In this document: in pieces, positions 1 to 44,716 of the stretch | Layout of the letters: each line of letters opens with the position of its first letter | Numbering within the stretch: the first letter of the stretch is position 1 | NCBI RefSeq assembly: GCF_001611795.1 | Contig: NZ_CP015098.1 | Location: 1 to 64,000 of the forward strand | Length of the DNA stretch: 64,000 nucleotides | Reading direction: 5' to 3' | From: Streptomyces qaidamensis | GTDB taxonomy: Bacteria; Actinomycetota; Actinomycetes; Streptomycetales; Streptomycetaceae | The notes under the pieces: model-generated | Databases searched by the model: none | Told to the model about the DNA's origin: nothing | What the model saw: the letters and a program-made list of their open reading frames with translations, nothing else | Translations under genes and position numbers: made by a program

Positions 1-16
1 GCCCTGATTAGCGCTT

Positions 17-155
17 GAATTTGCCTGGCGGCAAATTCTTGAGGTTAATTCTTTTGTTGGTTCTATTCGCCTGGCGGCGAATCGTTTGGGCTTTTCCTTG
101 ACCGCTGGCGCGGTCTTTGTGTGTGGGGGGCTTCTTTTCGGCCGCTGGCGCGGCC
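17..155. repeat. Four TGGC-loop hairpins, telomere-like
   Basis: Four perfect inverted repeats follow each other, each closing on the same tetraloop TGGC (GCCA on the other strand): 17-25/30-38 (9-bp stem), 65-71/76-82 (7 bp), 100-105/110-115 (6 bp) and 140-145/150-155 (6 bp). Arrays of small palindromes within the first 150-200 bases are the hallmark of Streptomyces telomeres, where the 3' overhang folds up during protein-primed end patching. The sequence lacks the archetypal CCCGCGG start, so this would be an atypical telomere. That the window begins at a physical DNA end is inference. Confidence 0.55.
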
Positions 156-160
156 TTGGG

Positions 161-772
161 GGTTGGTGGTGAAGGGGTGAGGTGTTGTCATATCTGTTGG
201 CATGACTGTGAGTTGGGTGTGCGTGAGGGGGTGGAGTTGGGGGGACACGGGACGTGAGGATGTGTCGTGTGGGGGTGGTGCACTCCTGTGCACGCCCCAT
301 TTGTGTTTGTTAGGTAGGGGTGGCGGTCCGTTCTCGGGGGTGTGTGGAGCGCCTGACGGCGCTGGTTGTCGTGGTGTGGGTGCTCACGGTGATGTGTGTC
401 TTGGGGCGGGGGCGGCCATGCATGTCTACGGGGCGGTGTGTACCTCGTCGGCGGGGGTGATCTCTATGTCGTCGGTCCTGATTCGAGGAGACCGGTGAGC
501 CTGACTCTGTCGCCGGCCTAGAGCACGCCGTGGACGGCACCACAACCATTCCGAGGCCCTGGCGCCCTTCGAGGGCGTCCAGGACGCCGTCGCCCTCGAA
601 GGGCCCTGCGGGTGTGGGGGCCGGGGGGCCTGCGTGCGGCTCGGCGTTCCGGAGCTTCTTCCTGACGGGTCGATCGGCGAGACGTGGGCGGGGACGAGGG
701 AGCAACCCACGGTGGTGTATTGGGCTGTATGGCTGTCTGCGGCCCTGGGCGCCAACGCCGGGCGACGTACGT
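161..772. other. Non-coding subterminal stretch
   Basis: No reading frame here resembles a protein. The stretch is G-rich on the plus strand and contains further inverted repeats: 348-353/358-363, which closes on TGAC, and 564-577/591-604, which has 14-bp perfect arms around a 13-nt loop. The density of secondary structure fits a subterminal region or the 3' end of the flanking minus-strand operon. Confidence 0.5.
564..604. repeat. 14-bp inverted repeat
   Basis: Perfect 14-bp arms at 564-577 and 591-604 flank a 13-nt loop. It lies about 225 bp beyond the stop of the minus-strand sigma-like gene. It could be a second terminator or a subterminal recognition element; the sequence does not decide between these. 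Confidence 0.5.
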
Positions 773-805
773 GAGCCCGTACCCCTCGTTCTTGGGTACG
801 GGCTC
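773..805 (-). terminator. Hairpin terminator after the sigma-like gene
   Basis: Perfect 12-bp arms (773-784 and 794-805) enclose a 9-nt loop. The structure begins 25 bp after the stop codon of the minus-strand gene ending at 830. There is no T-run, which is common for terminators in high-GC actinomycetes. Confidence 0.6.
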
Positions 806-829
806 GGGTCTTGTGCTGGGGGCTGTGGC

Positions 830-2044
830 TCAGCGGGTGAGTTGAGTGTCCGCGTGTGCGGGGCGTTCGATGCCGGCTCTCATGCGGTGACGGCCGGCCG
901 GGTGGGGGGTGAGGTACCGGGAGCAGCCGGGGGCCACGGCGTGGAGGGTGCGGGAGATGTCGGCGGGTTCGGTGTCGGGGGGGGGGGGGTGGTTGTCGAC
1001 GTCTTGGGCGAGGTTCTTGAGGGCGCGGTGCTGGAGGAGCTTGAGTGCTCCTTCGCTTCGGTTCATCACGCGGGCGCTCTCGGAGACGGAGAGGCCTTGG
1101 AGGAAGCGGAGCACGATGCACTCGTACTGGGCGGGGTTGAGGTCGTTGAGGGCGCTCAGGAGTGTGGGGAGGGGGAAGCCGGCGGGTTGTTCGCCGGCGG
1201 TCGCGGCCAGGAGGGCGGTGACCGCCTGGCGGCGTGTGTCTTGTTGAGGCACGGTTTTCTGTGTGGCGGAGACGAGGGCTCGGGCGGTGGCGATCAGCCG
1301 GGTCTCGGGGTCGGCGGTCGTGAGGTGGGGCAGGGCTCGGAGGAAGGTCTTGCTGGTGAGTTCCTCGGCGGTGGGGCCAGTGCCGACGAGGAGGCAGATG
1401 TAGCGGTAGACGAAGTCGGCGTAGCGGTCGTAGAGGGTGTGGATGGTCGGCTGGGCTGCTGAGGGGGTGGGTGCGGGTGTCCGGGGGGGGGGGGGTTGGT
1501 CGGTGAGGAGGTCGCGGAGGCGTCGGCGGGCGTGGCTGAGATGGGCCCGGACGGTGCTGCGCGAGATCTCGAGGGAGGTGGCGATCTCGTCCGTGTTCAT
1601 GGACTTCACGTAGCGAAGGACGACGATGGTCCGCTGGGTGGGCGGGAGCTCCTTGATCGCGCTGAAGAGCATGTCCTTGAGCACGATGATGTCGGCCGGG
1701 TCGGGCTCGGCCTCCAGGTAGGAGATGTCGTCCTCGAAGGTGGAGGTGGGGGCGGTGCGCGCCCACAGGCGGTTCTGGGCGAGGACGTTACGGCGTACGG
1801 CGGTGATCCCGTACGCAGTGGGGTTGTTGATCGTGTCCCAGCGGGCGAGGACGTCGAAGTAGGCGTCCTGGACAGCGTCGAGCGCCTGCTCGCGGCTGGT
1901 CGCGTGGTACCGGGCATACGCGAGGAAGCGGCGCTGGGTCTCGGCGTAGAAGTCGTCGAAGGCGGCGTACGGCATCGGCCCGGGCGGGCCGGACTCCGGT
2001 GTGGTGGAGTCCGGCCCGCGGCCGGTTGAAGAGGGTCCTGTCAC
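830..2044 (-). CDS. Double-module ECF-like sigma factor
   Basis: A 404-aa protein with two sigma-70-like modules in tandem. Module 1 has a region 2-like segment at about 26-95 and a clear region 4 helix-turn-helix at about 130-180 (LPPTQRTIVVLRY, then SRSTVRAHLSHARRRL). Module 2 has region 2-like at about 203-262 and region 4-like at about 296-346 (LNPAQYECIVLRFLQG, then SEGALKLLQHRALKNL). Normal ECF factors are about 180-200 aa with one module. Each module is followed by a Pro4 stretch encoded by a 13-base C/G run, so a slipped base would separate or alter the modules. The GTG start at 2044 overlaps the stop of the upstream membrane-protein gene (GTGA), indicating translational coupling. It should direct RNA polymerase to unknown promoters; whether one or both modules work is unknown. 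Confidence 0.75.
   Translation of the reverse strand: MTGPSSTGRGPDSTTPESGPPGPMPYAAFDDFYAETQRRFLAYARYHATSREQALDAVQDAYFDVLARWDTINNPTAYGITAVRRNVLAQNRLWARTAPTSTFEDDISYLEAEPDPADIIVLKDMLFSAIKELPPTQRTIVVLRYVKSMNTDEIATSLEISRSTVRAHLSHARRRLRDLLTDQPPPPRTPAPTPSAAQPTIHTLYDRYADFVYRYICLLVGTGPTAEELTSKTFLRALPHLTTADPETRLIATARALVSATQKTVPQQDTRRQAVTALLAATAGEQPAGFPLPTLLSALNDLNPAQYECIVLRFLQGLSVSESARVMNRSEGALKLLQHRALKNLAQDVDNHPPPPDTEPADISRTLHAVAPGCSRYLTPHPAGRHRMRAGIERPAHADTQLTR
977..989. repeat. 13-base G homopolymer
   Basis: An uninterrupted run of 13 G in the 3' part of the sigma-like gene, read as proline codons on the minus strand just after module 2. A one-base change would replace the C-terminal tail of about 50 residues. 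It may be a slipped-strand site or a place of sequencing error. Confidence 0.7.
1483..1495. repeat. 13-base G homopolymer
   Basis: A second run of exactly 13 G, at the junction between the two sigma modules and read as prolines in the linker. A one-base slip would end translation or shift frame after module 1, giving an ordinary single-module sigma factor. Confidence 0.7.
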
Positions 2045-25265: not shown

Positions 25266-25454
25266 GGCCGGGCCCGCCAGCTACCGCTGCCCGGCGTCGC
25301 CTCCGACGCCTACGACATCCAGGACCGCCTCCGCGCCCTCGACAACACCATGCACCTACTCGCCCCCAACCCGGCCTCCGGGCACGGAGGCTACCTGGCC
25401 GTGGCCCGAGGACCGCGCCCAGGCCTGAGGCCGACAGGGATCAGGGTGCCGTAA
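25266..25454 (+). pseudogene. C-terminal fragment, hypothetical gene
   Basis: One frame reads as protein with good codon bias (ASDAYDIQDRLRALDNTMHL, then GGYLAVARGPRPG) and stops at TAA 25454. It has no start of its own and begins at the lipoprotein stop. It looks like the tail of a gene lost by rearrangement. Family unknown. Confidence 0.35.
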
Positions 25455-36228: not shown

Positions 36229-37161
36229 TTGTCGAAGTGTCGCGTGGTCACGGTTGCCGGGTCCAGTACGTCCACTCCTGGGTGTGACTGTCTCGCCCAC
36301 AGGTTCGGGAACGCGGCCGACCTCCCGGGGCGTCGGCCCCGGTACGGCTCGGACATGAGCGATGACGAGTGGGCCCTGGTACGGGATCTGCTGCCGGTGC
36401 CGGGATGGCTGGCCGGCCGGGGCGGGCGGCCGGAGGGCTACTGCCACCGGCAGATGATCGACGCGATCCGCTACCTCGTCGACAACGGCATCAAATGGCG
36501 GGCGATGCCGTCGGACTTCCCGCCCTGGCCACGGGTGTACGCCTTCTTCGCCCGCTGGCGGGATGCGGGACTCGTGGCCGAACTGCACGACCGGCTGCGC
36601 GGTGCCGTCCGCGAGGCCGAAGGCCGTGATCAGGAGCCGAGTGCGGCAGTGGTGGACTCTCAGTCGGTGAAGGCGGACGCCACCGTCGCCCTCACCTCGC
36701 GGGGCTTCGACGCCGGCAAGAAGATCAACGGGCGCAAGCGTCACCTGCTCACCGACACGCTCGGTCTGCTGCTGGCCGTGCTGGTCACACCGGCCTCGGC
36801 CACCGACCGGGACGCCGCCCGCATCCTGCTGCCGACGGCCAAGGGGCGCTTCGGGCGGCTGACACGGGTATGGGCCGACGGCGGTTACACCGGCCATCTC
36901 GGCGACTGGAGTGCAGCACAGCTCGGAGTAGTCCTCGACATCGTCCGCCGCAGCGACGACACCCGCGGCTTCCGCGTCCTGCCCCGCCGCTGGGTCGTGG
37001 AACGATCACTCGCCTGGTGCCTGCGCAGCCGGCGCCTGGTGCGTGACTACGAGCGGCGCACCGACACCAGCGAAGCCGTCATCCTGTGGTCGATGACCAT
37101 GCTGATGAGCCGCCGCCTGGCCGCCCGGCACCGGTGTCCTGTTCCGGTGCGGGCGGCATGA
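36229..37161 (+). CDS. IS5-family transposase
   Basis: A 310-aa transposase from TTG 36229; a later start at ATG 36355 (MSDDEWALVRDLLPVPGW) would also give the conserved part. N-terminal DUF4096-type domain (YCHRQMIDAIRYLVDNGIKW), then DDE core AAVVDSQSVKADATV (Asp), RVWADGGYTGHLG (Asp) and RRWVVERSLAWCLRSRRL (Glu). No interruption. It overlaps the 3' end of the minus-strand gene at 37079 by 83 bp. Confidence 0.8.
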   Translation: MSKCRVVTVAGSSTSTPGCDCLAHRFGNAADLPGRRPRYGSDMSDDEWALVRDLLPVPGWLAGRGGRPEGYCHRQMIDAIRYLVDNGIKWRAMPSDFPPWPRVYAFFARWRDAGLVAELHDRLRGAVREAEGRDQEPSAAVVDSQSVKADATVALTSRGFDAGKKINGRKRHLLTDTLGLLLAVLVTPASATDRDAARILLPTAKGRFGRLTRVWADGGYTGHLGDWSAAQLGVVLDIVRRSDDTRGFRVLPRRWVVERSLAWCLRSRRLVRDYERRTDTSEAVILWSMTMLMSRRLAARHRCPVPVRAA

Positions 37162-37619: not shown

Positions 37620-37739
37620 CGCCACCCCCACGACCTCTCGCCCGGCAACAAGCCAAGGCTCCCGCGGCAGCAGCTACTTCATGTCTGACCAGCGAGGACG
37701 TCACACAAGGTTCGGAAAGAGAACGGCCTCTTAGAGGTG

Positions 37740-38575
37740 CTAACAAAGGCGTTGGACGTGTCGGTGGGTGATGAGACAGGTGGCGAGGCCGAGTAAGGCT
37801 TCATGGATGTCGTCGCGTCGTTCCCAGCGGATGCGCAGGCGGCGGAAGCCATGCAACCAGGAGATGGTGCGCTCGACGACCCAGCGGAAGATGCCCAGGC
37901 CGGAGCCGTGTGGCTGGCCTCGTTCGGCGATCATGGGCCGGATGCCGCGTTTCCACAGCTGTCGCCGGTACTTGTCATGGTCGTAGCCGCGGTCCGCGAA
38001 GAGCAGGTCTGGCCGTCTCCGCGGCCGCCCGACCGTGCCGGCCACGGGTGGAACCTTGTCCAGCAGCGGGATCAGCTGAGTGACGTCATTGCGATTGCCG
38101 CCGGTCAGCGACACCGCGAGCGGGATGCCCTGGCCGTCCGTGAGGACGTGGTGCTTACTGCCCGGCCGTGCGCGGTCGACCGGGCTGGGCCCGCTTTTGG
38201 GCCCCGTCGGGCCGCCCGCACATGGGAGGAGTCGATCACCGCCCTCGACCAGTCCAGCTGCTTCGCCGACCGCAGCTTCTTCAGCAGCACCACGTGCAGC
38301 TTCTCCCACACACCGGCCTCGTTCCAGGCGGCCAGGCGCCGCCAGCAGGTCATGCCCGAGCCGAAGCCCAGCTCCTGGGGCAAGTACTCCCACTGGATGC
38401 CCGTGTGCAGCACGAACAGGATCCCGCACAGGGCTTGTCGGTCCGGCACCCGCGGCCGGCCCGCCATTAGCTTCGGCCCCGGCTCGGGCAGCAACGGCTC
38501 GATGAGCGACCACAGTTCGTCCGACACGATCCACGGCCGCGACTGACGTTTCCCCACGACCAGACCAACGACCAC
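37740..38575 (-). CDS. IS427-like transposase, two frames
   Basis: The transposase is split in two overlapping frames. Frame A starts at GTG/ATG 38575 and includes IVSDELWSLIEPLLPEPGPK, FVLHTGIQWEYLPQELGFGS and RAVIDSSHVRAARRGPK (first Asp). Frame B continues with GSKHHVLTDGQGIPLAV, PDLLFADRGYDHDKY (second Asp) and RWVVERTISWLHGFRRLR (Glu), ending at 37740. The shift from A to B is -1 and occurs at a canonical slippery heptamer, C CCA AAA (38195-38201). Programmed frameshifting is normal in this IS group, so the gene is probably functional. Confidence 0.75.
38195..38201 (-). promoter_or_regulatory. -1 frameshift site CCCAAAA
   Basis: On the minus strand the heptamer reads C CCA AAA in frame A; slipping back one base gives CCC AAA and enters frame B exactly where homology resumes. 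It has the X XXY YYZ form of programmed -1 sites. Confidence 0.65.
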
Positions 38576-38619
38576 CCAAGCCGAAAGTCACATGATCAAC
38601 AACTTCTGTTAGGACCTCT

Positions 38620-39326: not shown

Positions 39327-40088
39327 TCACGCCCGGATGGGGCCCGGTGCGGTGTCTCGGGGTCGGTTGGCGGGGCGCCAGGTGCGGATTTCCAGGTGGA
39401 GGATGTGGGCGTCCGCGCGAATGCGCCCGGTTTCCACGAGCCATTGGTGGACGGCTGCGGTGACGTCGCCAGCTGCGGCGTTGACGCGGCGGGCGAAGTC
39501 GGCGGCGTCGAAGCCGCCGGTCTGGGCGGATCCGTAGGAGCGCTCTTCAGTGTGGTCAGCGCGTTGGATGACGTCGCGGCGGATGCCGGGTGAGTCGGTG
39601 CGGCTGCCGGAGGGGAGTAGGTAGCCGGTCTTGGCCAGGCGGACGGTGAGGGCCAGGCGTAGGCCTCGGCGGGCGGCTTCGGCGATCAGCGGGCGCAGGC
39701 GGGCGGAGCCGGAGGCGATCGCCTGGGCGCCGACGCGGCCGGTTCCAGATCCACTGGGTGTGATGAGGACGGCTTTGCCGCGGACCCGGGCGTGGGAGCC
39801 GGAGGCGGTGGTGCGTCGCTGGGTGTGGCGGGCGGCGATGGCGGCGAGTTCGGGCAGTTCGGTGATGCCGGCGGTTTCGATAGCAGTGAGGACTTCGCGC
39901 AGGGCCGTGACGAAGGCGGCTCCTTTGTTCTTTGTGTAGAACTGCGAGACCAGGGAGGGGTCGCGGTTGATGATGCGGGCGATGTCGCGTCTCGTGTAGC
40001 CGACGTGTTGGATTCGGTCGGCGAGTCGCGCGGCTTCGTTCAGCTCATCTTGTGGCGTCGCCTGTTGGCGGCGAGAGCGGGGGGGCAT
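39327..40088 (-). CDS. HTH protein, candidate terminal protein
   Basis: A 253-aa protein from ATG 40088, whose start touches the stop of the preceding gene (TGATG), so the two are translationally coupled. Residues 22-53 form a helix-turn-helix (YTRRDIARIINRDPSLVSQF). A basic linker (HTQRRTTASGSHARVRGKAV) and a mixed C-terminal domain follow. The layout, an N-terminal helix-turn-helix plus a basic domain in a protein of about 180-260 aa encoded next to a protein of about 700 aa, is that of Streptomyces terminal proteins and their telomere-binding partners. The size is close to what I recall for Tpc of SCP1. Sequence identity cannot be judged here, so the role is inference. It could instead be a partition or regulatory protein. 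Confidence 0.45.
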   Translation of the reverse strand: MPPRSRRQQATPQDELNEAARLADRIQHVGYTRRDIARIINRDPSLVSQFYTKNKGAAFVTALREVLTAIETAGITELPELAAIAARHTQRRTTASGSHARVRGKAVLITPSGSGTGRVGAQAIASGSARLRPLIAEAARRGLRLALTVRLAKTGYLLPSGSRTDSPGIRRDVIQRADHTEERSYGSAQTGGFDAADFARRVNAAAGDVTAAVHQWLVETGRIRADAHILHLEIRTWRPANRPRDTAPGPIRA

Positions 40089-42205
40089 CAGGTCTCCTGG
40101 CCGGGGGAGGCGAGGGCGGCGCGGCCGGCGTCGCGCAGAGCGAGGAGGTCCTCTTCGGTGGTGGGTGCTGTGAGGGGACCGTTGAGGTGGCCTCGCAGCA
40201 GGTAGTCTCCGGGCTGATGGTGGTAGGGCCAGTTCTGCGGTGTGGTGAGGTAGACGGCGTCGGTGCGGAAGGCGACGACGCTGCCGGGCGGGGTGTGCAG
40301 GGCTCCGGCGTAGGTGTCGTCGTCGCGGTGGCGCTGGGTGAGTAGGGCGGCCCGTGCGCCGGACCAGATCGCGGCTGTCCATTCGGGGTGGGCGTTGGTG
40401 TCCCGGCTGTAGCCGCTAGGGCGTTGCCAGGTGATCAGTTCGTCGTCGAAGCCGATGATTTCGGCGTCGGGCGGGACGTCTCGCTCCATGGTGCGGGGGG
40501 TGGTGCCGGTGACCATGCGGGGGCGTTGGGCGAATGCTCCGATGCCGTACAGCAGGATGGCGCGCACCGCGCGGGAGGCGAGGTGGGCGGCGCGGGCCTG
40601 CTGGGCGTCGCCCTGAAAGTGGGCTTGGGCGGAGAGGTTGGTCCAGGTCTCTTTGAGTTTCTTGGCCCAGTCGTCGAGTGGTTTGCCGTTCTCCCACAGG
40701 ATGCCGTCCAGGATCTCGACCTTCCACGGTGTGATCGGGTTGGACAGAGCGGTGTGGATTTCAGGGCCGCCGGCCCAGGTGGTGAAGGTGGTGCGGGGCT
40801 GGCTCGGGTAGTGCCAGGCACGCTCGCCCGGTGCCGGGGCGGGTAGGAGGCCGACGTGGTTCCAGGTGTCGGGAACGGTGACCCGGACGTGCCAGTGGCC
40901 GCAGCCGTACAGGGCCCGGTTCTGTTCTTTCTCGCTCCAGGCGGCGAATGTGGCGGCGGTGATGCGGCGGGGGGTGCCGACCGGAGATTTCCAGGTGTGC
41001 TTGGCGTAGGCGAAGGTGCGGTCGTATTCGACGAGTTGGGGCAGTTGGGCGGGGACGCGGGGTGGTGTGATGAGTTCGTTGCGGCCTTGTCCTGCGGTGG
41101 CGTGCAGCAGGCCGCGTAGTTCCTCGGACAGGACGGGGAAGCCGTCGGCGTACTGGCCGCGTTGGGGGATAGTGCGGGTCCACAGGTCGCGGCCGGTCTG
41201 GGAGGGGGAGCCCATCACGACGGCGTCAGGCCAGTGGCGGCGCAGCGTCTGCCACAGGAGGACGAAGGCGTCGCGGACGGTGGCGGGGTCGTCGCCGTCG
41301 AGGTCGAACCATTCCCCCACCGAGCGGATCTCGCAGTGCTGGCTGCCGTCTTCGCGCTGGTAGCGCCCTACGGGGTTGCGGGCGTGGACGAAGTGTCCGG
41401 CCATCCGGTCGCGGCCGCGGCCGGTGTCGGTGCGCCAGCCTGGGGTGGGGGCGTTGAGCCAGGCGGCGACGGCGTCGCGTAGGTATGGGTAGCGGTCGGC
41501 GTTGCGGTGCCAGGGGGCGCCTGCGGTGATGTAGATGCGTTCGGCGCCTTCGGGGAGGGTGTCGGAGACGGCGGTGAGGATGTCGGCGGCCGTCTGGTTG
41601 CCGAGGTCGAGGTGGTGGGTCTGGTGGCGGTGCACCAGGACGCCGGTGGTGGTGTCCAGGAAGACGGTGGAGCGGGCTTGCTGGGTGAAGTTGGGCCGGG
41701 TGGAGGCTAGACCCGCGGTGTGGGTGCACCAGGCGTCGCCGGCTTCGCCTTCGGGGATGGAGGGCAGGCTGCGCGGCGTATTCGGTGTCGTAGGCGCCGC
41801 TTGCTGGGGGCCGTGGGTGTTCTCAGCGGCCGGATCCGGTGAGGGTGCGGACTGTGGATCGCGGGTGGTGACGTTGGCGGGGGCCACCGCTGCTGTCTGG
41901 TCGACCGGTTCGGGCTCGCTGTCTGCGGCGGGGGCCACGGGTTCGGCGGCTGAGGGCTGCGGTGGGGATTGATCGGCGGCAATGCTGTCCGGGGCCAGGG
42001 CCGGGGCGAGGGAGACGATGTCGGCCACGCTCAGTCCGGCTGCCGGGGCGATCCGCTCGGCCTTTGCCTTCTCGTAGGAAGCGAGGTGGGCAATGCGCCG
42101 GTCGCGTTCGCTTTCCAGCCGGGTCAGTTCCGCCCGGGCTTTCTTGATCTTGTCCCGCACGGTGCGCAGGTCGGCGAGAGCAGTGTTGTAGCTCTGTGCG
42201 TCCAT
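40088..42205 (-). CDS. Family B DNA polymerase-like protein
   Basis: A 705-aa protein from ATG 42205 (AAGGAAG 7 bases upstream; ATG 42274 possible). There is an N-terminal coiled coil (KIKKARAELTRLESERDRRI), a Pro/Ala-rich linker to about 150, then a globular part. Several points recall family B DNA polymerases: STVFLDTTTGVLV at about 180 in the place of an exonuclease motif; EYDRTFAYAKHTW with Asp395 resembling motif A; KVEILDGILWENGKPLDDWA; RAILLYGIGAFA resembling motif B; and SVVAFRTDAVYLTT (Asp649) resembling motif C (DTDS). Key residues differ from the consensus, so it may be divergent or inactive. It is the third gene of an operon of DNA-binding proteins and coupled to a terminal-protein candidate. 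Alternative: a telomere-associated protein of the Tac or Tap kind. Confidence 0.45.
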   Translation of the reverse strand: MDAQSYNTALADLRTVRDKIKKARAELTRLESERDRRIAHLASYEKAKAERIAPAAGLSVADIVSLAPALAPDSIAADQSPPQPSAAEPVAPAADSEPEPVDQTAAVAPANVTTRDPQSAPSPDPAAENTHGPQQAAPTTPNTPRSLPSIPEGEAGDAWCTHTAGLASTRPNFTQQARSTVFLDTTTGVLVHRHQTHHLDLGNQTAADILTAVSDTLPEGAERIYITAGAPWHRNADRYPYLRDAVAAWLNAPTPGWRTDTGRGRDRMAGHFVHARNPVGRYQREDGSQHCEIRSVGEWFDLDGDDPATVRDAFVLLWQTLRRHWPDAVVMGSPSQTGRDLWTRTIPQRGQYADGFPVLSEELRGLLHATAGQGRNELITPPRVPAQLPQLVEYDRTFAYAKHTWKSPVGTPRRITAATFAAWSEKEQNRALYGCGHWHVRVTVPDTWNHVGLLPAPAPGERAWHYPSQPRTTFTTWAGGPEIHTALSNPITPWKVEILDGILWENGKPLDDWAKKLKETWTNLSAQAHFQGDAQQARAAHLASRAVRAILLYGIGAFAQRPRMVTGTTPRTMERDVPPDAEIIGFDDELITWQRPSGYSRDTNAHPEWTAAIWSGARAALLTQRHRDDDTYAGALHTPPGSVVAFRTDAVYLTTPQNWPYHHQPGDYLLRGHLNGPLTAPTTEEDLLALRDAGRAALASPGQET

Positions 42206-42923: not shown

Positions 42924-43706
42924 CTATCCCCCGTGCTCCCAGGCCTCTTCCACAGCGGGCCCGTCAGCGTCGATCTTGAGGAGGCGGGAGGCGATACCGC
43001 CCTGGTTGCGGCCGAACTCCTGTGCCAGCTCGGCCAGCGATGCGCCCGTTACGCAACATTCGGCCAGGCGCTGGTCTTCGGTACTCCAGGGTTCGTAGGC
43101 GTTGGGGTGGGTCTTGCGCTTTTCGGCGACTGTGTAGGCCTTGGGTTTTTTCTTCGGTTCGGCGTGTGGGGCGGGTACGTCGTCGACCGGGAAGGGGATG
43201 AGGTTGAGGCGGTACAGCGCCCAGCGCAGGGCCTTCTCCCCGCGCCCCAGGGATTCGGCCATTTCTTGCAGGGAGGTACCGGCGAGGAATGCGGTGCGTA
43301 GGCGGTCCTTCTCCTCATGGGTCCATCGGGCTCCGCGACGGGATGGTTTGGCCTTCGGGTCGGGAGCGCTGGCCTGAGCGGGGATCGCGGGGGTAGCGGG
43401 TGCCGCAGCCTGGGTTGCCGGTCGCTTGCGCAGGGCCGCCCAGTCCGGTTCGTAGGTCGTGGGGAGTTGCTCACGGAAGGCATTGAGCAGTCTCAGGTAG
43501 GCATAGGTGTCGGCCGTGTCGGCGCTGTGCTGGCCGGCCTCCCAGTCGGACATGACTTCTGGCTCCTCATTGAGGGCGTCGGCGACTTCCTCGATGGTGG
43601 CTCCCCACAGTTCACGCAGTCGACGCCGTTCTCCGGGCGGGGGGAGCTGCGGGGGCCGGGGGCCTTGGTTGAGCAGATGGTCCTGAGAAGTGATGTGCGC
43701 GTCCAT
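42924..43706 (-). CDS. Multi-HTH DNA-binding protein
   Basis: A 260-aa protein from ATG 43706 (the frame is open to 43934 but the extra part is Ser/Arg-rich and unlike coding sequence). Residues about 25-75 are an XRE-like domain (LWGATIEEVADALNEEPEVM). Two further helix-turn-helix units of Myb/SANT-like or GcrA-like pattern follow: RWTHEEKDRLRTAFLAGTSL to MAESLGRGEKALRWALYRL, and PWSTEDQRLAECCVTGASL to LAQEFGRNQGGIASRLLKI. It should bind repeated DNA sites. As the first gene of the cluster with the polymerase-like and terminal-protein-like genes, it could recognise an origin or telomere. Confidence 0.6.
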   Translation of the reverse strand: MDAHITSQDHLLNQGPRPPQLPPPGERRRLRELWGATIEEVADALNEEPEVMSDWEAGQHSADTADTYAYLRLLNAFREQLPTTYEPDWAALRKRPATQAAAPATPAIPAQASAPDPKAKPSRRGARWTHEEKDRLRTAFLAGTSLQEMAESLGRGEKALRWALYRLNLIPFPVDDVPAPHAEPKKKPKAYTVAEKRKTHPNAYEPWSTEDQRLAECCVTGASLAELAQEFGRNQGGIASRLLKIDADGPAVEEAWEHGG

Positions 43707-44716
43707 AGTGTGCCTGTCAGGGGTATCGGTGACGGTGTTGCTGCCGGACCGTCGGCGGCTGCGCCGATCGCGGTTGCGGGCAAGGACAGGAGTCCGAAAG
43801 AACGAAGGAAGGTGTACGGCACTTGGGCACGCCCGGACCATCAGCTCCGCCGCCCGGGCCGGGGATGCCGGCGCCGAGGGGCAAAGACCTCCGCCTGGTC
43901 TCGGCCTCAGCGCCTGAGGGCGGGGTGTGGCCACCCGCTCCGCTGGATCTCAGCATGCCGCACCAGCAAAGATGTGCGGCTGCGCGCAGGGAACGATTTT
44001 TCTGATCTCGTATGCCATGTGACCTGTGCGGATTCGGGGAGCTGATGCAGCGGGCTGCTCCCCGAAGGGGGATGCTTACGAACGTATGTCCCATGTGTGG
44101 GCTGCCTTGGCCTGCTTGGGGACTCGTTGCATCGGCGCGAGATCGCTGATGCGGCCCGGCCCGCCGCGGTCCAGGTTTGGGTGGTGTGCGTCTGGTTCGG
44201 GATGCCAGCCCAGCCGGCTGCTGTCAGGTATGGGCCGCTCGTGGCTCCCTCCGGCTCGGTGGGGCTGAGGTCGCCGGCATCCTCCCGACCGCTCTTGGCG
44301 GACTTTCGCGCGACCTGCGTTACGAATCGGGCGGGAGCATGCGGCCCCCGCAAGCGGTGGATGTTCCTGAGGTCTGGACGTGTAGTCAGGGCAGGTTGTC
44401 CGCAAGCGCAGGCGTTACGAAAAGCAGCACTGCGGGGTGTGGCGCTAGCGCTGGGGCACAGGCTTCGCGCCCGTCACGTCTGCGCAGGCCAAGAGGGGTG
44501 CAGGGTTCTGTGCGCAGGGGCGTTGCGGGTTGGGTGGTGACACGCATGAAGCCGACGCACGGACCGGTCTGCAGGCCGCGAGCGGTGTCTATCTGGCGGC
44601 GGAGAAAGGGGGCCGGAACCGTATTTAGGGTCCCTCCTTGGCGTGACGTGTCGCGGTTCGTCTGATGGCCGCTTCTGCGGTGCGGTAGCCGTGGTGGCAA
44701 CACGGATACGGAGGAC
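43707..44716. other. 1 kb without a convincing gene
   Basis: Frames on both strands are short, overlap each other and lack families. The region lies between the minus-strand replication-like operon and the plus-strand genes of the Tn7-like block, so it holds both promoters and is a reasonable place for an origin. No iterons were found by eye. Confidence 0.4.

Follow-up and report, generated by a model that had tools for sequence, protein, structure and literature searches.

Linear Streptomyces DNA carries a terminal protein, and which enzyme forms the first bond on it has been a standing question; a pair of genes near the left end of the Streptomyces qaidamensis chromosome bears on it. A 2015 study reported that Tap and Tac make that bond and called them a new class (PMC4513846). 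For SCP1, Tac was necessary and sufficient for the addition of deoxyguanosine monophosphate (dGMP) to the terminal protein Tpc and for its brief elongation, and purified Tac and Tpc sufficed for deoxynucleotidylation and short synthesis with no polymerase added (PMC4513846). The same study states that Streptomyces has no B-family polymerase (PMC4513846). The window analyzed here is bases 1 to 64,000 of the single 9,083,372-bp contig of S. qaidamensis (NZ_CP015098.1), and the gene pair within it encodes a 705-amino-acid (705-aa) protein and a 253-aa protein. The first-pass annotation had read family B polymerase motifs in the former and a tac-tpc-like arrangement in the pair. We consider it probable, at a little better than four chances in five, that the pair is a Tac-Tpc-type end-patching system and that its Tac-like protein, by structure prediction, folds like a protein-primed family B polymerase of the phi29 type.

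The fold prediction was made with AlphaFold2 from the window protein and 69 relatives. The best model had a mean predicted local distance difference test score (pLDDT) of 82.4 and a predicted template modeling score (pTM) of 0.72, and the five models spanned mean pLDDT values of 68.9 to 82.4. Foldseek returned 341 matches in the PDB at E ≤ 10, and all nine at E ≤ 0.001 were phi29 DNA polymerase, including the best match, 1xhx_A (E 9.0e-11), and 2ex3_A, which is phi29 polymerase together with its terminal protein (E 2.6e-10). Five phi29 polymerase entries were aligned by VIA at Z 17.7 to 19.8 over 404 to 418 residues (root mean square deviation 5.2 to 5.9), the top alignment (Z 19.8) placing 416 residues of model positions 176 to 705 on positions 4 to 513 of the phi29 chain. 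Among the rows listed, the next chain after the phi29 polymerases scored Z 11.9. The other 45 rows listed are, from their names, presumably family B polymerases. In the Foldseek viral library, 39 of 210 matches were at E ≤ 0.001, 30 of the 39 were named DNA polymerase or PolB, and polymerases of phages, a tectivirus, archaeal viruses, and adenoviruses were among them. No unrelated family outscored phi29 polymerase in either search, and the palm that the first-pass annotation had called for is present in the predicted model. The model thus contains a family B palm and fingers with an exonuclease-like N-terminal domain, and its relation to phi29 polymerase is a distant one.

The candidate catalytic residues of that model are conserved. 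Motifs A, B, and C of the first-pass annotation (EYDRTFAYA, RAILLYGIGAFA, and VVAFRTDAVYLTT) lie in the 705-aa protein where they had been read, and D395 of motif A and D649 of motif C are invariant both in an alignment of 10 diverse family members and in one of 70. In the 10-member alignment, motif A reads like YDRTFAYA or VDGRFMYA and Tyr400 is conserved in at least 90%; the position five residues after D395 is Tyr in nine members and Phe in the tenth, and phi29 DVNSLY shows the same D-x4-Y spacing. Motif B is A-x-R with an invariant R548, in a helix (residues 534 to 556) that ends at the invariant G556, where phi29 has KLMLNSLYGKF. In motif C a single Asp remains (RTD or xGD in the 10 members), located in a strand-turn-strand at residues 643 to 653. 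In the predicted model, D395 is at the end of a strand and D649 at the turn of a hairpin. Moreover, the helix HPEWTAAIWSGARAALL has a plausible phi29 counterpart in ITAWARYTTITAAQ, paired by eye like the other Tac-phi29 residues. No more than one acidic residue remains in the probable exonuclease motif: D184, which is replaced by Asn in pSCO2 and is not followed by a second acidic residue. Proofreading has therefore probably been lost. The domain limits in Table 1 are approximate and come from the AlphaFold2 secondary structure. Residues 1 to 145, the helical region and linker, are found in Streptomycetaceae members and are missing from the relatives of about 530 to 545 aa in Micrococcales.

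Table 1. Features of the window (nucleotide positions) and of the Tac-like protein (residue positions)
Feature	Position	Strand	Remarks
Telomeric hairpin GAATTTGCC(TGGC)GGCAAATTC	17..38
Telomeric hairpin ATTCGCC(TGGC)GGCGAAT	65..82
Telomeric hairpin GACCGC(TGGC)GCGGTC	100..115
Telomeric hairpin GGCCGC(TGGC)GCGGCC	140..155
Fifth hairpin, also of TGNC type, with loop TGAC	348..363
Tpc-like protein, candidate terminal protein, 253 aa	39327..40088	minus	ATG at 40088
TGATG stop-start overlap of the tac-like and tpc-like genes	40086..40090	minus
Tac-like protein, 705 aa	40088..42205	minus	ATG at 42205, stop at 40088; an upstream GTG start would give 728 aa
HTH_17 (excisionase/MerR-like) DNA-binding protein, 223 aa	42234..42905	minus	Pfam HTH_17, E 3.6e-7
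N-terminal coiled-coil/helical region	Tac-like residues 1-76		predicted model, approximate limits
Disordered linker	Tac-like residues about 78-141		predicted model, approximate limits
Exonuclease-like domain	Tac-like residues about 176-330		predicted model, approximate limits
Polymerase palm and fingers	Tac-like residues about 380-700		predicted model, approximate limits

The tac-like and tpc-like genes are one unit. Both open reading frames (ORFs) are intact and share 1 nucleotide (nt), as expected from the earlier proposal that they are translated together, and the TGATG sequence makes translational coupling likely. A genome scan gave 124 relatives of the 705-aa protein, and in each of the 80 loci kept, the closest of the 124, a Tpc-like ORF lies 3′ of tac. 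The two ORFs overlap in 70 of the 80 (by 1 nt in 46 and by 4 nt in 24), are 0 to 60 nt apart in 2 and 61 to 300 nt apart in 6, and show their widest gaps, 312 and 749 nt, in the remaining two. A homolog of the HTH_17 gene precedes tac by no more than 300 nt in 52 of the 80 loci, 76 of the 80 having at least 800 nt of upstream sequence, and this gene is likely the upstream member of an operon with the pair. A further ORF (42924 to 43934, minus strand) encodes a 336-aa protein whose residues 85 to 200 align with the N-terminal portion of NF047542, the Tap model (profile positions 7 to 117; 52.5 bits, E 3.5e-14), without the remainder of Tap; homologs are found in 23 of the 80 pair loci.

Relatives on actinobacterial plasmids connect the pair to the SCP1-type system. 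Among 72,556 plasmid records, tblastn with the 705-aa protein found 57 positive records at E ≤ 1e-5 (25 from Streptomyces, 7 from Curtobacterium, 6 from Micrococcus, 5 from Kitasatospora, 5 from Cutibacterium, and others), and tblastn with the 253-aa protein found 27, all from Streptomyces or Kitasatospora. Twelve of the records were examined for annotated form, eight being linear and four, pSCO2 among them, circular. PMC8743542 names SCP1, pSCO2, and pFRL3 as the replicons with SCP1-type telomeres and reports tac and tpc on pSCO2 (printed pSSCO2). Homologs of the two window proteins (32% identity for Tac and 28% for Tpc) adjoin on pSCO2 as a pair of fitting size and order, no other such pair is present in the pSCO2 gene table, and pFRL3 also carries the homologous pair. 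Tac-Tpc homologs have likewise been reported for Kitasatospora viridifaciens DSM 40239 (PMC7188733). The pair is present on pKVP2, a plasmid of the same strain; we do not equate it with the published genes because the locus tags differ. The resemblance to tac-tpc noted in the first-pass annotation is thus supported by the pSCO2 and pFRL3 pairs and, to a lesser degree, by the association with G-run and hairpin ends described below.

Consistent with that assignment, the 253-aa protein fits the published description of a terminal protein. PMC3572947 describes SCP1 Tpc as a protein of 259 aa with a helix-turn-helix (HTH) at its N terminus and a basic center, encoded downstream of tac. The window protein has an N-terminal HTH (residues 17 to 84 of the predicted model), a basic linker RRTTASGSHARVRGK, read from the sequence as a basic stretch at residues 91 to 105, and a C-terminal alpha/beta domain, and the earlier description of it as an HTH protein of terminal-protein size can stand. 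No Ser, Thr, or Tyr is invariant across a 10-member Tpc alignment, and no match of the Tpc model to the phi29 terminal protein appeared among the matches listed. The C-terminal domain (model residues 111 to 239) weakly resembles the little finger of Y-family polymerases, which were its best Foldseek matches (top E 0.03) and scored Z 4.2 to 4.5 in VIA, both within noise; the likeness is of interest because DinB is reported as needed for end patching.

The left end of the chromosome was compared with the ends of other replicons. A scan of the window for hairpins with a perfect stem of at least 6 and a TGNC loop found five on the plus strand (starts 20, 66, 100, 140, and 348), all within positions 1 to 363, and one on the minus strand, at 25389. 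Four fall in the first 200 nt, against a mean of 0.0004 and a maximum of 1 in 5000 dinucleotide-preserving shuffles. The telomere-like hairpins with which the window was said to start are therefore real, but its first base is not the extreme terminus: related ends (G253, G284, and G100:C2) extend roughly 50 to 200 nt beyond the matched part, so the assembly probably lacks the outermost left end. When the 300-nt window end was searched against 392 Streptomyces genomes, 11 matched at E ≤ 0.001, the S. qaidamensis genome included. In five others the match lay no more than about 350 nt from the end of a contig (G253 and G284 at both ends, G100:C2, G132:C20, and G309 on two small contigs), four of which (G253, G284, G100, and G132) carry Tac on the same contig, and none of the five genomes with matches farther inside (G012, G162, G135, G271, and G281) carries Tac. 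At the background of 12 of 149 other genomes in the 150-genome survey described below, at least four Tac carriers in five would arise by chance with a probability of about 2e-4, for a division into end and interior matches that was made post hoc and with short, weak matches in G132 and G309. The pair lies 42 kb from each end in G284, much as in the window, and 257 kb from the right end in G253. Ends with serial hairpins and TGAC, TGGC, or TGTC loops form a Streptomyces family (G253, G284, G132:C20, and G100:C2; L199 to L204), and the pair-bearing right end of Curtobacterium pC1b has the same loop and a 16-mer, GGCCGCTGGCGCGGCC, in common with the window.

Some ends of pair-bearing replicons fit the start of synthesis described for SCP1, where deoxyguanosine triphosphate (dGTP) is used first and up to six dG are added, according to PMC4513846. 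In a survey of the first 400 nt of pair-bearing replicon or contig ends for a G-run or a TGNC hairpin, seven ends began with a G-run (both ends of pSCO2, pFRL3 right, G132:C20, G100:C2 left, pC1b right, and pLMV7 left, there after CTA). The loop type differs among pair carriers, as pSCO2 and pLMV7 have G-runs without TGNC loops, the right end of pFRL3 combines a G-run with one TGTC loop alongside other loops, and the ends of NBC_00724 have hairpins with other loops and no G-run; the right end of pKRAD01 has one TGAC hairpin and no G-run. Neither feature was present in the 400 nt of pFRL3 left, pKRAD01 left, pC1b left, G069 left, G100:C2 right, Kitasatospora cheerisanensis left, GQFP and G079 left (which share a start sequence), or either end of NBC_00015, pKVP2, pCff119, and L072 (CB01881). 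We read most of these featureless assembled ends as incomplete, the alternative being a different telomere.

The right end of the S. qaidamensis chromosome resembles this last group. As assembled (L007), it lacks both a cluster of telomere-like hairpins and a terminal inverted repeat shared with the left end, a comparison of the left end with the last 40 kb on the right yielding only one copy of an insertion sequence-like element. Either this end is incomplete or the chromosome has two different ends. The repeated element is at 37724 to 38619 of the window, with an 88% identical inverted copy about 5 to 6 kb from the assembled right end, and contains ORFs that read as transposase-like; another such ORF lies at 36229 to 37161. 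A blastn search of window positions 1 to 1000 against plasmids gave no match.

Several observations weigh against the proposed identity. PMC4513846 states that neither Tap nor Tac contains a polymerase motif. Neither protein of the pair reaches any Pfam or NCBIfam cutoff. The DNA_pol_B_2 profile, which the first-pass annotation had suggested as a check, did not match the window protein; its matches to four of 10 family members (E 4.4e-4 for pSCO2, the best, then 0.0015, 0.015, and 0.22) lend independent sequence support to the polymerase assignment, but none of these reached the cutoff, the best score being 19.7 bits versus the Pfam cutoff of 25.8. An hhalign comparison of the Tac family with phi29-like polymerases gave no signal (score 19.3; palm alone 12.9), and the homology with phi29 polymerase therefore rests on predicted fold. 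That prediction drew on an alignment made up solely of relatives at least 55% identical, and the phi29 matches in Foldseek have template modeling scores (TM-scores) of only 0.34 to 0.47 at 11 to 13% identity. The motif B Lys and the complete YxDTD of motif C are absent from the 10 members: R548 replaces the Lys, the Asn and Tyr of phi29 motif B are missing, and the first Asp of DTD is gone, leaving RTD or xGD. Because of these deviations, we describe the protein as a divergent variant by fold and not as a classical family B member. Membership in the SCP1 system is inferred through the pair on pSCO2. Outside the Streptomycetaceae the downstream protein is only 17 to 22% identical to Tpc and unseen by tblastn, so pairing beyond Streptomyces and Kitasatospora rests on position, size, and HTH. 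G309, a 760-contig draft, has window-like DNA near contig ends without Tac, in the form of two 33-nt matches 104 nt from the contig ends and outside the hairpins. Finally, the same genome encodes a canonical Tap.

Other searches were silent on a polymerase. Queried by sequence against the PDB, the 705-aa protein and the profile of its family (A1) each gave two chance-level matches, a PHROGs search of A1 members listed no polymerase family, scans of viral contigs for the Tac family confirmed 0 of 86 and 0 of 46 stretches, and a phage collection held no Tac-family match at E ≤ 1e-3. The Tap model NF047542 matched neither the window protein nor any A1 member among the matches listed.

Canonical Tap bears on the pair in two ways. 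It is encoded at full length at 228192 to 230258 (L009; 1121 bits), and the pair may therefore be a passenger. Across 150 Streptomyces genomes, Tac is found in 13, the S. qaidamensis genome included, and Tap is above the cutoff in 99; nine of the 13 Tac genomes also have Tap above the cutoff. In the other four (G052, G069, G079, and G086), the matches to the Tap model are all weak (best E 1.7e-17 to 1.1e-5), so the pair may be sufficient for a chromosome; in G069 it lies 65 kb from each end.

Tap also seems to be remotely related to Tac by sequence profile. Comparison by hhalign of the Tac family with 30 Taps gave a score of 39.2 (P 9.5e-4, probability 22%), and Tap VGLDLNTAF, KATVKGGIGKL, WRPDIRAAVISKARVN, and LAVLSDCVVY fell in register with Tac motif A, motif B, the helix after motif B, and motif C. 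Controls scored lower: at most 29.6 for 150 column shuffles, 21.4 for reversal, and at most 22.4 for 27 ORF families from the same loci, which were not screened for frame shadows. With seven distant Taps added, the score was 38.7 (P 0.0013). Two of these (L211 and L212) read DVCASYL, KGGVGKW or KNGIGKW, and NVDQVMY or NVDSYLY, a third (L213) is without both Asp residues, and a fourth (L217) is without the first. Pfam found nothing but HTH domains in the S. qaidamensis Tap and no DNA_pol_B_2 in two distant Taps, a PDB sequence search with one distant Tap had no match, and hhalign of Tap with the phi29-like polymerase profile gave no signal (19.4; palm alone 14.2). We lean, with some reserve, toward an origin of Tac and canonical Tap in one captured phi29-type protein-primed family B polymerase. 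A 2017 paper reportedly terms Tap a primase, going by its title.

In a different account of the locus, compatible with the polymerase fold, the pair would be no more than the inert remnant of a linear plasmid that had integrated, Tap-Tpg would maintain the chromosome, and the left hairpins would be fossils. The full-length Tap, the transposase-like ORFs between the end and the pair, and the lack of a telomere-like right end in the assembly all agree with it. Against it, both ORFs are intact and have near relatives (up to 82% identity among aligned Tac-like and 87% among Tpc-like proteins), the left hairpins are perfect, and nine of the 13 Tac genomes have a Tap above the cutoff as well. We regard an inert pair as rather unlikely.

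A second alternative grants the fold and denies the activity: Tac would be polymerase derived and nonpolymerizing, keeping the terminal protein in place at the hairpins and leaving formation of the first bond to DinB or a different polymerase of the host. The degenerate motif B and DTD, the apparent loss of exonuclease residues, and the reported requirement for translesion polymerases in end patching (PMC4513846) speak for this scheme, but D395 and D649 are invariant across the aligned genera, and purified SCP1 Tac and Tpc needed no added polymerase, which together make it improbable. A reading of the pair as a replication initiator of plasmids, or as a partition operon, that does nothing at ends is very improbable, despite its occurrence on plasmids of several genera and the ParA genes adjoining it in L010 and L011, given the predicted protein-primed polymerase fold, the association with G-run and hairpin ends, and the presence of the pair in each arm of the chromosome-size contigs that represent G069 and G284.

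By its predicted structure, then, Tac appears to be a protein-primed family B polymerase that has degenerated and has probably lost its exonuclease activity, and a mechanism can be proposed. At G-run telomeres, the N-terminal region of Tac would bind hairpins in the single-stranded 3′ overhang, and Tac would recruit the 253-aa Tpc as primer. With D395 and D649 as presumed metal ligands, it would link the first dGMP to a Tpc hydroxyl and then add a short oligonucleotide, which a host polymerase would take over and extend while Tpc remains linked to the 5′ end. Here the pair would most likely serve the left end, because the hairpins there are of the kind found with the pair, alongside the canonical Tap system at 228 kb.

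The first-pass annotation had held that a divergent protein-primed polymerase would be a notable mechanism for Streptomyces; the predicted phi29-type fold supports the polymerase, but the type of system is already published as Tac-Tpc. As the pair belongs to that type, what is new is what Tac is, namely its predicted fold. No assignment of Tac or Tap to family B appeared among the titles, abstract openings, and passages covered in the open literature. A polymerase-fold model would remove the paradox of a Tac that elongates Tpc with neither a polymerase motif nor a family B enzyme to account for it, and a family B fold with named residues makes the first-bond question testable by two point mutations, D395 and D649. 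If the fold is correct, bacterial telomere replication would be linked to that of phages, archaeal viruses, and adenoviruses. If the common origin with Tap is also correct, Streptomyces ends would be finished by a domesticated, exonuclease-dead viral-type polymerase pared down to a short-primer role. This would overturn the statements that deny Streptomyces a B-family polymerase and deny any relationship between Tap and Tac. Further undiscovered end-patching systems are considered likely (PMC8743542), and the Tac fold offers a handle for finding them.

Among known systems, phi29 shares with the pair the predicted order of exonuclease-like domain, palm, and fingers, the catalytic Asp residues of motifs A and C, the D-x4-Y spacing, and a neighboring terminal-protein gene. 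The Tac-like protein differs from it in being about 11 to 13% identical, in its degenerate exonuclease residues, in the change of the motif B Lys to Arg and of DTD to one Asp, and in an extra N-terminal helical region and linker; moreover, its relative in SCP1 is published as acting on replicons that have an internal origin and as making no more than a short oligonucleotide. pAL1.101 of the Arthrobacter linear plasmid pAL1 is said to be a telomere enzyme that has partial family B motifs and acts on a terminal protein; it is reportedly much larger (1707 aa) with other domains. Tap-Tpg resembles the pair in its published role and in Tap motifs that follow the order and register of Tac motifs A, B, and C, whereas the profile similarity is weak, Tap has an N-terminal HTH_31, and Tap telomeres differ and start with C; in PMC4513846, Tap and Tac are described as without shared homology. 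SCP1 Tac-Tpc has the same order of tac and then tpc, a terminal protein of similar size (259 versus 253 aa) with an N-terminal HTH and a basic center, and G-run ends like those of related pair-bearing replicons. In contrast to SCP1, whose Tac is published as having no polymerase motif, the window pair is not on a plasmid and lies near a chromosome end with TGNC-loop hairpins.

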